Positions 27,663 to 32,812 of a DNA stretch of 64,000 nt are shown here, in pieces. The number at the start of each line of letters is the position of its first letter. Positions within the stretch are counted from its first letter, which is position 1. The stretch covers positions 248,001 to 312,000 of the forward strand of contig NZ_WTCR01000005.1 in NCBI RefSeq assembly GCF_009795715.1, written 5' to 3'. A program made the translations under genes and the position numbers. The notes under the pieces are model-generated. The model was not told where the DNA came from and did not search any database. It saw only the letters and a program-made list of their open reading frames with translations. This stretch comes from Labilibaculum euxinicum. Its GTDB lineage: Bacteria > Bacteroidota > Bacteroidia > Bacteroidales > Marinifilaceae.

Positions 27663-28355
27663 ATGGATATACCTGAAAAGAAACTAATTATAGCAATCGA
27701 CGGACATTCGTCGTGCGGAAAAAGTACTGTTGCCAAGGATTTGGCAAAAAAAATTAAATACACTTATATTGACAGTGGCGCAATGTATCGGGTGGTTACT
27801 CTTTTTGCAATGAGAAACAACTTAATTTCCAGCGACAAAGTAGATGAAAATAAGTTGGCTCATTTGATCGATCAAGTAAACATCTCTTTTAAATACAACA
27901 CTGAAAAACAGCGTCACGAGACTTATTTAAATGCTGAATTGGTTGAAGATGAGATTCGCCAAATGGCTGTTTCGAACAACGTAAGTTTGATTGCTAAAAT
28001 CAAATTTGTTCGTGAGAAAATGGTGGCTTTTCAACGTGAATTGAGCAAAGAAGGTGGAGTTATAATGGACGGCAGGGATATTGGAACTGTGGTTTTCCCA
28101 AATGCCGATTTAAAAATATTTATGACAGCCGATGTGGAAATAAGAGCCATTCGCCGTTACAAAGAATTAAAAGATAAAGGAGAAAACATTTCATTGGACG
28201 AAATCAGAGAAAACGTTTCAAAAAGAGATTATATCGATGAAAACCGTGATGAAAGTCCGCTCCGAAAAGCTGATGATGCAATTGTACTTAACAACAGCCA
28301 TTTAACTCCGGACGAACAATTGGATTGGATTGTTGATCGCATGAATGAGCTGTAA
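27663..28355 (+). CDS. cmk: cytidylate kinase
   Basis: This 230-residue protein phosphorylates CMP and dCMP in the cytoplasm. The start at 27663 (MDIPEKKLIIAIDGHSSCGK) is chosen because a -7 box lies immediately upstream and the extra N-terminal frame is not conserved. It has the P-loop GHSSCGKSTVAKDL, the Cmk segment YIDSGAMYRVVTLFA, and MDGRDIGTVVFPNADLKIF. A lid follows with ISLDEIRENVSKRDYIDENR. It is followed 23 bases later by the ispH-pfkA frame, consistent with one operon. Confidence 0.93.
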   Translation: MDIPEKKLIIAIDGHSSCGKSTVAKDLAKKIKYTYIDSGAMYRVVTLFAMRNNLISSDKVDENKLAHLIDQVNISFKYNTEKQRHETYLNAELVEDEIRQMAVSNNVSLIAKIKFVREKMVAFQRELSKEGGVIMDGRDIGTVVFPNADLKIFMTADVEIRAIRRYKELKDKGENISLDEIRENVSKRDYIDENRDESPLRKADDAIVLNNSHLTPDEQLDWIVDRMNEL

Positions 28356-28378: not shown

Positions 28379-30226
28379 ATGAATATTGAAATTGATCCTA
28401 ACGCCGGATTCTGCTTTGGTGTTGTAAATGCCATAAATAAAGCGGAAGAAATACTGAAAGAGGACAATCAACTCTTCTGTATTGGTGATATCGTTCACAA
28501 CAATATCGAAGTTGATCGTCTTAATACTCAAGGGTTACAAGCCATCAATCACGATCAGTTTGCAAAACTGTCAGGAAAAAAAGTTTTATTTAGAGCACAT
28601 GGAGAACCTCCAACCTCTTACGAAACAGCAAAAAAGCAAAATATAGAAATTATTGATGCTTCGTGCCCGGTAGTTTTAAAACTGCAAAAAAAGATAAAAA
28701 AAGCATATCAGGAGATTAAGAAGTCAAACGGTCAAATAATTATATACGGTAAAAAAGGTCATGCCGAGGTAAATGGTTTAGTCGGTCAAACCGAAGGCAA
28801 GGCAATTGTTGTTGAAAATACAGATGATTTAAAATTGGTGAACTTTAGCTTGCCGGTTGTTCTGTTTTCACAAACAACAAAAACCATTTCAGGCTTTGCT
28901 GAAATTTCAGAATATCTGAAAAAGGAATGCAAAAACAGCCTTAGTATTAATGATACAATTTGCAGAAAGGTATCGAATCGTGTTCCCTTAATTAAGGATT
29001 TTGCAGGCAAACACGATGTGATCATTTTTGTGAGCGGAAAAAAAAGTTCGAACGGAAAATTACTGTTCGATGTCTGTAAAAGAACAAATCAGAACAGTCA
29101 CTTTATCACTTGCCCCGATGAACTGAATATGGACTGGTTTGCGAATGCGAAATCGGTTGGTGTAAGCGGAGCAACATCCACTCCCACCTGGCTGATGAAT
29201 GATACAATTGAAAAAATAAAACTTGAAAATAAAAACGATTTAAGCATGTCTAAAATTAAGAAAATTGGAGTTTTAACTTCAGGAGGCGATGCTCCAGGAA
29301 TGAATGCAGCTATCAGAGCTGTTGTTCGTGCTGCTATCTATAACAAAATTGAAGTTGTAGGTGTACTGCAAGGATACGAAGGCTTAATTCATGGTGATTT
29401 TAAGAAAATGAAATCTCATGATGTAAGCAACATTATTCAAAAAGGCGGAACTATTCTTCGTTCGGCCAGAAGTGAAGAATTCAGAACTGTTGAGGGAAGA
29501 AAAAAAGCACATGAGCAAATGATTGCCAATAAAATAGATGCTCTTGTGGTTATTGGTGGTGACGGTACATTTTCAGGAGCCCGTATTTTTACACAAGAAT
29601 TTGATATCCCTGTAGTGGGAATTCCGGGTACTATCGACAATGATTTGTTTGGTACCGATTACACGATTGGTTACGACACGGCAATCAACACAGTAATTGA
29701 TGCTGTTGATAAAATCCGCGATACTGCGAGTGCTCACAACCGTTTGTTCTTTATTGAAGTAATGGGCCGTGATGCTGGTTTTATTGCTTTGCGAAGTGGA
29801 ATTGCAACAGGAGCTGAAGCTATTTTAATTCCTGAAAAAGAAACCCACACTCAGGAATTGCAAAAATATCTTGAAAAAGGGTACAAAGAACACAAATCAA
29901 GCGGAATTGTAATTGTTGCAGAAGGTGACAAATCTGGTGGTGCTTACACAATTGCAAAGGAAATTGGAAAAGAACATCCTGAATACGACATTCGTGTATC
30001 TGTTCTGGGACACATGCAAAGAGGAGGTTCTCCATCGGCTTTCGACCGCGTAACTGCATCTACTTTGGGCGTTGCTGCTGTTGAAGCTTTACTGGATGAT
30101 CAAAAGAGTATCATGGTTGGAATTGTTAACGGTGAGGTTTCACATGTTTCATTCAACAAAACAATTAAAAACAAGAAGAAAGTTAAGGATTCACTGATGA
30201 GTCTTAACGATATTCTTTCTATCTAA
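28379..30226 (+). CDS. ispH-pfkA: in-frame fusion of IspH and 6-phosphofructokinase
   Basis: One uninterrupted 615-codon frame. Residues 1-289 are IspH, the [4Fe-4S] enzyme making IPP and DMAPP at the end of the MEP isoprenoid pathway. Its cluster cysteines are in AGFCFG, DASCPVV and DTICRKVSNR, and it keeps RAHGEPP, KKGHAEVNG and GATSTP. Residues 290-615 are a complete PfkA beginning with its own Met (MSKIKKIGVLTSGGDAPGMN), with GGDGTFSGA and PGTIDNDLFGT. No linker separates the parts, so it looks like loss of the ispH stop rather than an old fusion. A TAA out of frame by one sits at 29241-29243. Whether two proteins are also made from the internal ATG is open. Confidence 0.85.
   Translation: MNIEIDPNAGFCFGVVNAINKAEEILKEDNQLFCIGDIVHNNIEVDRLNTQGLQAINHDQFAKLSGKKVLFRAHGEPPTSYETAKKQNIEIIDASCPVVLKLQKKIKKAYQEIKKSNGQIIIYGKKGHAEVNGLVGQTEGKAIVVENTDDLKLVNFSLPVVLFSQTTKTISGFAEISEYLKKECKNSLSINDTICRKVSNRVPLIKDFAGKHDVIIFVSGKKSSNGKLLFDVCKRTNQNSHFITCPDELNMDWFANAKSVGVSGATSTPTWLMNDTIEKIKLENKNDLSMSKIKKIGVLTSGGDAPGMNAAIRAVVRAAIYNKIEVVGVLQGYEGLIHGDFKKMKSHDVSNIIQKGGTILRSARSEEFRTVEGRKKAHEQMIANKIDALVVIGGDGTFSGARIFTQEFDIPVVGIPGTIDNDLFGTDYTIGYDTAINTVIDAVDKIRDTASAHNRLFFIEVMGRDAGFIALRSGIATGAEAILIPEKETHTQELQKYLEKGYKEHKSSGIVIVAEGDKSGGAYTIAKEIGKEHPEYDIRVSVLGHMQRGGSPSAFDRVTASTLGVAAVEALLDDQKSIMVGIVNGEVSHVSFNKTIKNKKKVKDSLMSLNDILSI
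29246..30226 (+). CDS. pfkA: 6-phosphofructokinase moiety, with its own ATG
   Basis: This 326-residue segment is a full-length ATP-type phosphofructokinase, the committed step of glycolysis. It has the ATP loop LTSGGDAPGMNAAIRAV, GGDGTFSGARIF, the catalytic aspartate region PGTIDNDLFGTDYTIGYDTA, and the substrate segment EVMGRDAGFIALRSG. Its initiator ATG at 29246 is in frame with, and follows without a stop, the ispH coding region. It is listed separately because translation from this ATG would give a normal PfkA, whatever the fate of the longer frame. Confidence 0.8.
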   Translation: MSKIKKIGVLTSGGDAPGMNAAIRAVVRAAIYNKIEVVGVLQGYEGLIHGDFKKMKSHDVSNIIQKGGTILRSARSEEFRTVEGRKKAHEQMIANKIDALVVIGGDGTFSGARIFTQEFDIPVVGIPGTIDNDLFGTDYTIGYDTAINTVIDAVDKIRDTASAHNRLFFIEVMGRDAGFIALRSGIATGAEAILIPEKETHTQELQKYLEKGYKEHKSSGIVIVAEGDKSGGAYTIAKEIGKEHPEYDIRVSVLGHMQRGGSPSAFDRVTASTLGVAAVEALLDDQKSIMVGIVNGEVSHVSFNKTIKNKKKVKDSLMSLNDILSI

Positions 30227-30319: not shown

Positions 30320-30337
30320 AGGAAAATGCTCACAGTA

Positions 30338-32812
30338 ATGAACAAGACTACCGAATTCGCAGATATTATACTGCCACTTCCATTGGCCCGGCTTTTTACC
30401 TACTCTATTCCGGAGGAACTAAAAGCTGATGTGGCCATTGGAAAAAGGGTAGTTGTTCCCTTCGGCAGTAAAAAATTCTACACAGGCATTGTGAAAAACA
30501 TTCACAATACAGCTCCTGAAGATTATTCAACCAAAGATATTATTACCTGTCTGGATGAATCTCCGATTATCAATTCTTTTCAATTCAATTTTTGGGATTG
30601 GATATCACAATATTACCAATGTGCTTTAGGTGATGTTTTTAAAGCAGCACTTCCTTCAGGATTAAAGCTGGAAAGCCAAACCAAGATAACTGCAAACGAA
30701 GATTTTCAGACTCAGGAAACTCTAAGTAAAACCGAGGCGCAAATTTTGAATGTACTAAAGCATTCAAAAGACGTGAACATCTTTGCATTAAATCAGGCCA
30801 CAGGATTAAAAAATACGCTTCCTCAAGTAAAATCACTACTCGAAAAAGGAGCCGTTTCCATCGAAGAACAAATCATTAACCATTACAAGGAAAAGAAAAA
30901 AGAGTTTGTTCGATTGGTATATGATTTTAGCGAATCGGAAATGGGAAATCTGATTAATGACTTAAAAAGAGCAAAAAAACAGCAGGAGATACTCCTCTCC
31001 TATCTTAATCTTTCCAAACATTACTTCGAAGAAAATGCTCTAAAAGTTTCAGCCCTCGAACTTCTAACGTCAACAGCAGCTTCCAAAAGCATTTTAAAAA
31101 GTTTGGTGGAAAAAAACATTCTTGAAATTTACCATGAGAAAATGGATCGAATCGATCTGTCTCAAACAGAAACTTCAGGACTTAAAGAATTGAATGAATA
31201 TCAGGAAAAAGCAATTGCTGAGATCCGTGAAAACTTTGAAGAGAAGAACTGTGTACTGCTCCACGGAGTCACCTCAAGTGGAAAAACAGAAATATACATC
31301 CATCTGATTCAGGAGCAGTTACAACTTGGGAAACAGGTACTTTACCTGTTGCCGGAAATTGCTTTAACAACTCAGATCATCAATCGGCTGCGAACTGTAT
31401 TTGGAAATAAAGTAGGAATCTATCATTCGAAATTTAACGATGCCGAACGGGTAGAAATTTACAACAATATCAATCAAAACAATCCTGATAATGCCTATCA
31501 GGTAATATTAGGTGTTCGTTCATCAATATTTTTGCCTTTCAAAAATTTAGGATTAATTATTGTCGATGAAGAACACGAAAACACATACAAACAATTCGAT
31601 CCGGCTCCGCGATACCACGCACGCGATGCTTCTATTTATCTGGCTCATTTGCATCAGGCAAAAACTTTATTGGGCACTGCTACCCCCGCAATAGAAACCT
31701 ACTATAATGCCAAAACGGGCAAATACGGTTTGGTAGAATTGTTTCAGCGTCACCAAAATCTGGAAATGCCCGAAATAATTATTGCTGATGTAAAGGAAGC
31801 CAAACGGAAAAAACGGATGAAATCCATGTTCTCTCCTGAGTTGATGCAAATGATGGAAACTTGCCTGGAAAATAAGGAACAGATCATTTTATTTCAAAAC
31901 AGAAGAGGATATTCGCCCTATCTGGAATGCAAAAGCTGCGGGTGGGTTCCTCATTGCCCAAACTGTGCTGTCAGCTTAACATACCACCAATTCAACAATC
32001 AATTGGTTTGCCATTACTGTGCTTACAGTATTCATCCACCAACCAGCTGTGAACATTGCAGTTCAACCGAAATTGAAGACAAAGGTTTTGGAACTGAAAA
32101 AATTGAAGAGGAATTAACAGGTTTCTTTCCTGATGCAAGAATTGCAAGAATGGATTTGGATACCACCCGCAAAAAAATGGCCTATGAAAAACTCATTTAC
32201 AAATTCGAAAATCAGGAACTCGATATTTTAGTGGGTACACAAATGGTTTCGAAGGGACTCGATTTTGATAATGTGAGTTTGGTTGGTGTGCTAAATGCTG
32301 ACTCAATGCTGAATTACCCGGATTTTCGTGCCTACGAACGGAGTTTTCAGATGATGGCTCAGGTTTCCGGACGTGCCGGCCGAAAAAAGAAAAGAGGCAA
32401 AGTTCTGATACAAACTTATACTCCTGAACACCCAATCATAAAAAATGTAATTGGGAACGATTATATTTCGATGTACTCCGACCAATTGGCAGAAAGAAAA
32501 GAATTTATTTATCCACCTTTTTACCGCTTAATCAACATCTGTTTAAAACACAAAAACCAAACTCTGGTGAATCAGGCGTCAGAAACCTTGGCAAAATCTT
32601 TACGGAAAATTTTTGGCATTCGTGTATTTGGGCCTCAATCGCCTGTTATTAACCGAATTCAAAACTTATACATCGTTAACATCCTTTTAAAAATAGAGAA
32701 GAAAAGCTCCCCATCTAAAGCCAAATGGATTTTAAATCAACATGCAAATCATCTAAAAAGCATGGATCAATTTAAATCCATTCAAATTAATTTCGACGTC
32801 GATCCGATGTAA
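30338..32812 (+). CDS. priA: primosomal protein N', replication restart helicase PriA
   Basis: This 824-residue SF2 helicase reloads the replisome at stalled forks. The start at 30338 (MNKTTEFADIILPLPLARLF) fits the conserved N-terminal DNA-binding domain. It shows Walker A HGVTSSGKTE, the helicase motif IIVDEEHENTYKQ, and the two zinc-binding clusters CKSCGWVPHCPNC and CHYCAYS...CEHC inserted in the helicase core. The family motif GTEKIEEEL comes before the C-terminal domain. It lies downstream of pfkA with a short spacer carrying its own -7-like box. Confidence 0.95.
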   Translation: MNKTTEFADIILPLPLARLFTYSIPEELKADVAIGKRVVVPFGSKKFYTGIVKNIHNTAPEDYSTKDIITCLDESPIINSFQFNFWDWISQYYQCALGDVFKAALPSGLKLESQTKITANEDFQTQETLSKTEAQILNVLKHSKDVNIFALNQATGLKNTLPQVKSLLEKGAVSIEEQIINHYKEKKKEFVRLVYDFSESEMGNLINDLKRAKKQQEILLSYLNLSKHYFEENALKVSALELLTSTAASKSILKSLVEKNILEIYHEKMDRIDLSQTETSGLKELNEYQEKAIAEIRENFEEKNCVLLHGVTSSGKTEIYIHLIQEQLQLGKQVLYLLPEIALTTQIINRLRTVFGNKVGIYHSKFNDAERVEIYNNINQNNPDNAYQVILGVRSSIFLPFKNLGLIIVDEEHENTYKQFDPAPRYHARDASIYLAHLHQAKTLLGTATPAIETYYNAKTGKYGLVELFQRHQNLEMPEIIIADVKEAKRKKRMKSMFSPELMQMMETCLENKEQIILFQNRRGYSPYLECKSCGWVPHCPNCAVSLTYHQFNNQLVCHYCAYSIHPPTSCEHCSSTEIEDKGFGTEKIEEELTGFFPDARIARMDLDTTRKKMAYEKLIYKFENQELDILVGTQMVSKGLDFDNVSLVGVLNADSMLNYPDFRAYERSFQMMAQVSGRAGRKKKRGKVLIQTYTPEHPIIKNVIGNDYISMYSDQLAERKEFIYPPFYRLINICLKHKNQTLVNQASETLAKSLRKIFGIRVFGPQSPVINRIQNLYIVNILLKIEKKSSPSKAKWILNQHANHLKSMDQFKSIQINFDVDPM

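Follow-up and report, generated by a model that had tools for sequence, protein, structure and literature searches.

Published partners of IspH in fusion proteins are S1, UbiA, CMP kinase, a helicase, fructose bisphosphatase (FBP) and UDP phosphorylase (PMC4746011). In IspH-RPS1 (NF000907) and IspH-UbiA, IspH is followed by the second domain in one lineage-restricted chain, and no other ispH was found in the organisms that carry IspH-RPS1 (PMC4746011). The rare fusions, i.e., CMP kinase-IspH-RPS1, IspH-helicase (Bacteroidales bacterium CF), FBP-IspH and UDP phosphorylase-IspH, were each reported in one species or its strains (PMC4746011). The main text of the same source does not name phosphofructokinase, and literature searches that combined IspH, HMBPP reductase or lytB with phosphofructokinase or pfkA fusion returned no title or abstract on such a protein, subscription journals lying mostly outside their scope. 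Another kind of relevant system is provided by Cas11b (PMC11899642) and RpnL/RpnS (PMC10327210), in which a full-length chain is accompanied by its C-terminal part, made from an in-frame internal start.

The gene described here lies in a window of 64,000 nucleotides from Labilibaculum euxinicum (contig NZ_WTCR01000005.1), with the following features:

28379..30226, plus strand: fused gene ispH-pfkA, 615 codons plus a TAA stop, open in 18 distinct genomes
28379..29221, plus strand: IspH (LytB) domain, residues 1-281 (PF02401, NF002187, Foldseek 3dnf)
29228..29245, plus strand: connector, residues 284-289 (NKNDLS), predicted to be flexible; codon 286 is TAA in Ancylomarina
29213..29284, plus strand: putative pfkA translation start region kept in-frame, codons 279-302, with few third-position changes, A-rich and with little predicted structure near the ATG
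29246..29248, plus strand: internal ATG (Met290), the PfkA start in unfused relatives, ATG in 18/18 fused rows
29246..30226, plus strand: PfkA domain with stop, ATP-type 6-phosphofructokinase (PF00365, TIGR02482, Foldseek 4i4i)
29241..29243, plus strand: TAA in the +1 frame, two bases before the codon-290 ATG; unfused relatives use another stop
27663..28355, plus strand: cmk, (d)CMP kinase, upstream on the same strand (TIGR00017, 232.4 bits against a cut-off of 135.55)
30326..32812, plus strand: priA, replication restart helicase, downstream on the same strand (TIGR00595, 597 bits against a cut-off of 230.35)

Phosphofructokinase is thus a new partner for a known kind of IspH fusion. As in IspH-RPS1 and IspH-UbiA, IspH is followed by a second domain in one chain of restricted distribution; unlike in these, the partner is a PF00365 phosphofructokinase without S1 repeats or UbiA, and its start region appears to be kept. 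The chain also falls short of the full-length cut-off of NF000907 (234.7 against 624 bits). Two of the partners in the rare fusions resemble the neighbors of ispH in the window, namely cmk upstream and the helicase gene priA downstream, a match that suggests fusion between adjacent genes as far as these partners are described in PMC4746011. With Cas11b (PMC11899642) and RpnL/RpnS (PMC10327210) the gene would share the full-length chain plus a C-terminal part from an in-frame internal start, the difference being that the inner product would be a complete, formerly independent metabolic enzyme, and that both products of the gene are predicted ones.

Both halves are recognized by their respective profiles. 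PF02401 covers residues 5-281 (E 2.8e-81, 273.2 bits against a cut-off of 24.5) and PF00365 residues 295-571, which agrees with the preliminary description of IspH and PfkA in one stop-less frame, with the ATG of pfkA as codon 290. The IspH half exceeds the curated cut-offs of NF002187 (352.4 against 276 bits) and TIGR00216 (221.3 against 187.85), and the PfkA half that of TIGR02482 (423.6 against 371.35 bits). C12, C96 and C195, which we take to be the three cluster-binding cysteines of IspH, are invariant in 14 fused rows, and the PfkA half contains GGDGT and PGTIDND, presumably marking the ATP type as opposed to GGDD and PKTIDND. The AlphaFold model, built on an alignment of ten fused rows and 27 stand-alone PfkA sequences, has a mean pLDDT of 80.9 and predicts two ordinary domains with a low-confidence join; a model on 14 fused rows alone gave a poor PFK half and was not used, and a mixed alignment of both stand-alone halves, misaligned by MAFFT, was likewise left unused. 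Foldseek matched the PFK half to 4i4i (Bacillus stearothermophilus PFK, TM by target 0.91) and the IspH half to 3dnf_B (0.81). The earlier statement that there is no linker is nearly right, except that in the predicted structure residues ~284-293 follow the final helix of IspH, precede the initial strand of PfkA and separate the domains, with pLDDT under 50 at residues 286-290.

The full 615-codon frame is open in 16 of the 56 family genomes searched, with protein identities of 81-100%; the fused loci of Marinifilum caeruleilacunae and M. breve bring the number to 18 distinct genomes, all of the Labilibaculum/Marinifilum group of marine sediment bacteria. By genus, the fusion is found in eight of nine genomes of the window's own genus g1 (the ninth is 63% complete and gave no match), in four of five of g5 (the fifth is 80% complete, again with no match), and in all genomes of g10 (2/2), g7 (1/1) and g9 (1/1). 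Four of the g1 genomes are named Labilibaculum, the four matching g5 genomes Marinifilum, and the g9 genome is Marinifilum sp. N1E240. In a sample of the order, 9 of 393 genomes had a joined match at 1e-165, i.e., the own genome and eight with stops inside, and in a sample of the window's own phylum only the own genome of 395 had one at 1e-150, both cut-offs being strict enough to miss strongly diverged fusions; an additional scan of contigs detects close relatives only. Long open frames had made G018, G036, G040 and G048 candidates for further fusions, and the junctions, once read, showed separate genes in each.

The closest unfused arrangement occurs in genus g17, one member of which is Ancylomarina sp. 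DW003. All five g17 genomes match the fused gene in total length and frame, except that codon 286 is an in-frame TAA, the only one, which precedes the pfkA ATG by 9 nt. Reading of the junction in a further 25 genomes of the family showed separate genes, spaced by -14 to +115 nt and often in different frames. The TAA at 29241-29243 had been put forward as the stop of separate genes, to be brought in frame by one base fewer in relatives. Its place is as described, in the +1 frame and two bases ahead of the ATG, but the Ancylomarina relatives use the in-frame TAA at codon 286 instead, and in the 18 fused genomes the junction is open. The junction states, compared directly in living relatives, apparently show the locus prior to and following the fusion, resolved to a single codon; the direction, loss of a stop, is inferred from the outgroups. 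One outgroup genome, G066, encodes another close PfkA homologue (69% identity) in addition to the ispH-adjacent one (C11:1599367-1601244, 2299624-2300616).

A single fusion through loss of one stop codon is the best reading of these states, with moderate tree support. In a tree of Cmk, IspH, PfkA and PriA that still included G028 (see below), the fused rows form one clade with support 87; without G028 and four long or distant rows (G009, G011, G015, G027), the support is 71/65, and it is 84/85 when RpoB, taken from 29 genomes, is added to the four proteins. With RpoB alone, the core genera stay unresolved, and the best tree requires two changes. In AU tests, a grouping of Ancylomarina with Marinifilum was rejected (p 0.024) and one with Labilibaculum was kept (p 0.31). 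Ancylomarina as the outer branch fits the published mean amino-acid identities of 72.0% for Ancylomarina-Marinifilum and 75.4% for Labilibaculum-Marinifilum (PMC12325347). Since the clade support is moderate, RpoB is unresolved and Ancylomarina+Labilibaculum was kept, the alternative that the genes were split again in Ancylomarina may also apply.

The former start codon of pfkA has a context that resembles a translation start. Against a reference set from 264 kb of the own genome, with 128 unambiguous starts and 1471 internal in-frame ATGs, Met290 of the window scores 5.76 bits, a value at the 88th percentile among starts and at the 99.9th among internal ATGs. None of the 18 fused rows falls below the 90th percentile of internal ATGs; three of them, G017, G001 and G028, have a weaker context (27th-34th percentile among starts), the lowest score being that of G001 (27th among starts, 90th among internal ATGs). 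Adenine at positions -3, -6, -12 and -13 is reported to favor initiation in Flavobacterium johnsoniae (PMC6847099), and the fused rows have adenine at -3 and -13 in 18/18, at -12 in 15/18 and at -6 in 8/18. Predicted structure from -20 to +20 around the ATG amounts to -0.6 kcal/mol in the window, compared with medians of -1.65 kcal/mol at the 128 starts and -4.6 at 1415 internal ATGs. The g10 genomes and G001 (together L008, L009, L010) have a Shine-Dalgarno-like GAGGAG 6 nt before the internal ATG, which was not used as start evidence because Bacteroidia ribosomes are reported not to recognize such sites (PMC9976891). A sigma-70-type scan found no consensus promoter near 29200, with 4 in the region against 9.3 expected by chance.

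A second line of evidence comes from third codon positions, for which changes were counted by parsimony in 17 related fused sequences (without G028) and corrected for residue type. Codons 278-289 show 10 changes where 28.3 are expected (0.35) and codons 291-302 show 14 instead of 32.5 (0.43); none of 3000 random draws was as low as either stretch. In five Ancylomarina rows, where these stretches flank the real pfkA start, the ratios are 0.18 and 0.26. Of the twelve 12-codon windows with the lowest values in the gene, ten begin at codons 278-290 and two at 450 and 451, the lowest of the whole gene lying elsewhere, at codons 451-462 (0.30); in an uncorrected count, the eight lowest 13-codon windows begin at codons 278-285. 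The start-like context could simply be inertia from the former intergenic region, against which the third-position test argues, as far as 17 related sequences and a parsimony count carry it.

Neutral simulations of the fused clade, which spans 4.4 four-fold substitutions per site in total, bear on the same point. At the four-fold rate, the seven connector codons stayed stop-free in 1.4% of 20,000 runs, and at 0.3 times that rate in 19% (P 0.19 vs 0.014); since the connector itself changes slowly, its freedom from stops is weak evidence. The ATG was kept in all 17 rows in 0 of 20,000 simulations at the four-fold rate and in 1.5% at 0.3 times the rate. A conserved internal ATG (codon 290 in 18/18, with adjoining residues 286-289 varying), a start-like context and lowered synonymous change, which together we take as the mark of a dual start, are all found here.

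The gene fusion is genuine, and we regard it as likely that the gene has a dual start, yielding both IspH-PfkA and free PfkA; the dual-start version is favored by the start context, the third-position constraint and the low predicted structure. The preliminary description had proposed a bifunctional or dual-start protein as one of two possibilities, and the same open frame in 18 genomes supports it. The ancestor would have carried ispH and pfkA in one frame with just one TAA between them, a few codons ahead of the ATG of pfkA, comparable to Ancylomarina, and loss of that TAA would have fused the two. Ribosomes starting at the ispH ATG would read through into the 615-residue IspH-PfkA chain, which, barring frameshifting, must be made because no in-frame stop is left. 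Ribosomes probably also start at Met290 and release a free PfkA of 326 residues, given that the old start region is kept with its start-like context and third-position constraint. PfkA-type enzymes form tetramers, so mixed PfkA tetramers, in which some subunits bear IspH on a short flexible tether, would be the likely product, and the usual activity of each enzyme is probably retained. The fusion can be accounted for without any special metabolic coupling. The start region of the downstream gene is seemingly still constrained within the new frame, which makes the locus a testable case of adjacent genes that fuse while the second enzyme keeps independent expression.

Alternatively, the gene might encode an obligate bifunctional enzyme, i.e., the 615-residue chain only, with a fixed 1:1 ratio of both activities and Met290 as a merely inherited residue. 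The uninterrupted frame in 18 genomes would be expected of such an enzyme, and in the predicted structure of the chain each half has the fold of an ordinary enzyme. However, an ATG retained in every fused row next to changing residues 286-289, and third-position change that is lowered before and after it, as it is around the true pfkA start of Ancylomarina, make this reading unlikely.

More improbable is a separation of the chain into two enzymes, either because ribosomes shift frame or slip on the A-rich tract and reach an off-frame stop, or because a protease cuts the connector, the predicted flexibility of which would suit the latter. For the former, the window offers AAAAA at 29231-29235, and every fused row has a +1-frame TAA shortly before the ATG: at 2 nt in 10 of the 18 rows and at 8 nt in the other eight, which also have a +2-frame TAG at 1 nt. 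However, the run of A is not kept, genus g10 and G001 having TAAAGAGGAG in its place, so that there is no shared slippery site among the relatives read, and a programmed frameshift was rejected. Moreover, this AT-rich stretch abounds in off-frame stops, in unfused rows as well; the TAA at 29241-29243 is one of five between codon 276 and the ATG in the window gene, and its presence therefore means little.

Any functional link between the two halves has to be seen against the gene content of the own genome (G000). As in the organisms with IspH-RPS1 described in PMC4746011, IspH is present in a single copy, which is the fused one. Four genes match PF00365, of which only the fused one passes TIGR02482; the other three (254.8 bits, 187 bits, and one unlisted at E 1e-30) have PKTIDND or PKTMDND in place of the PGTIDND of the fused gene. 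Two of these three pass NF002872, a broader 'ATP-dependent' subfamily model (358.3 and 254.6 against a cut-off of 253), and PFK activity therefore need not depend on the fusion. Were the frame annotated under a single name, either the sole IspH of such a genome or its sole TIGR02482-type PfkA would go unseen. Changes per site in IspH are 0.78, 0.41 and 2.65 at first, second and third codon positions, a pattern that indicates selection still acting on IspH.

The own genome also contains ispG (GcpE). It lies in a 651-residue open frame (G000:C6:127921-129780) that the profile matches in two separate parts, which points to a long insertion. Besides ispG and ispH, there is a mevalonate-pathway gene cluster (L135:7852-12302, G000:C9), comprising an HMG-CoA reductase (the best NCBI model being the degradative TIGR00532), a diphosphomevalonate decarboxylase (172 against a cut-off of 171.35 bits), a GHMP kinase and a protein that resembles type 2 IPP isomerase but stays under its cut-off (204.2 against 281.3 bits). 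All ten core-group genomes tested (seven fused, three Ancylomarina) gave a match to HMG-CoA reductase, and none of six outgroup genomes tested, from six genera, did. Isoprenoid supply may thus not depend on IspH, which is perhaps non-essential, and such dispensability could have eased the fusion.

A further possibility, which we consider decidedly unlikely, would extend the dual-start gene into a two-product hinge: free and IspH-tethered PfkA would meet in mixed tetramers, and the ratio of the two starts, possibly together with the state of the Fe-S cluster in the IspH arm, would tune glycolysis. If true, glycolytic flux would be set by oxygen or by the need for isoprenoids in bacteria with genes of both isoprenoid pathways. 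Very unlikely is a functional coupling in which the IspH arm tethers PfkA or senses for it, e.g., through its iron-sulphur cluster, so that glycolysis is tuned to the need for isoprenoids or to oxygen. The fusion has been kept across a clade of the depth given above, each half is the sole copy of its type, and a sensor role was proposed for other IspH fusions in PMC4746011. However, the loss of one stop codon between adjacent genes requires no such function, and the mevalonate-pathway cluster may allow isoprenoid supply to bypass IspH. Finally, a sequencing or assembly error, the second possibility of the preliminary description and one suggested by an A-rich tract where a one-base indel would bring a stop in frame, has a negligible probability: the open junction is common to 18 distinct genomes, including three that are assembled as single contigs (G004, G007, G014) and named isolates sequenced in different projects, and the frame at 28379-30226 is real, neither an indel artefact nor the accident of a single assembly.

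One of the 18, G028, may itself be misassembled, either as an assembly mixture or, alternatively, as a product of very recent recombination, and was left out of the rate analyses. The genome (region C1:2430001-2450000) looks like a fine mosaic, in which blocks 97-100% identical to G017, a member of its genus, are interspersed with others that match G061 (Ancylomarina sp. DW003) at 100% and with some stretches like neither. The PfkA half of its fusion gene agrees with the stand-alone pfkA of G061 without a difference over nearly its whole length, and the switch points lie at the pfkA ATG and a few codons before the end of pfkA.
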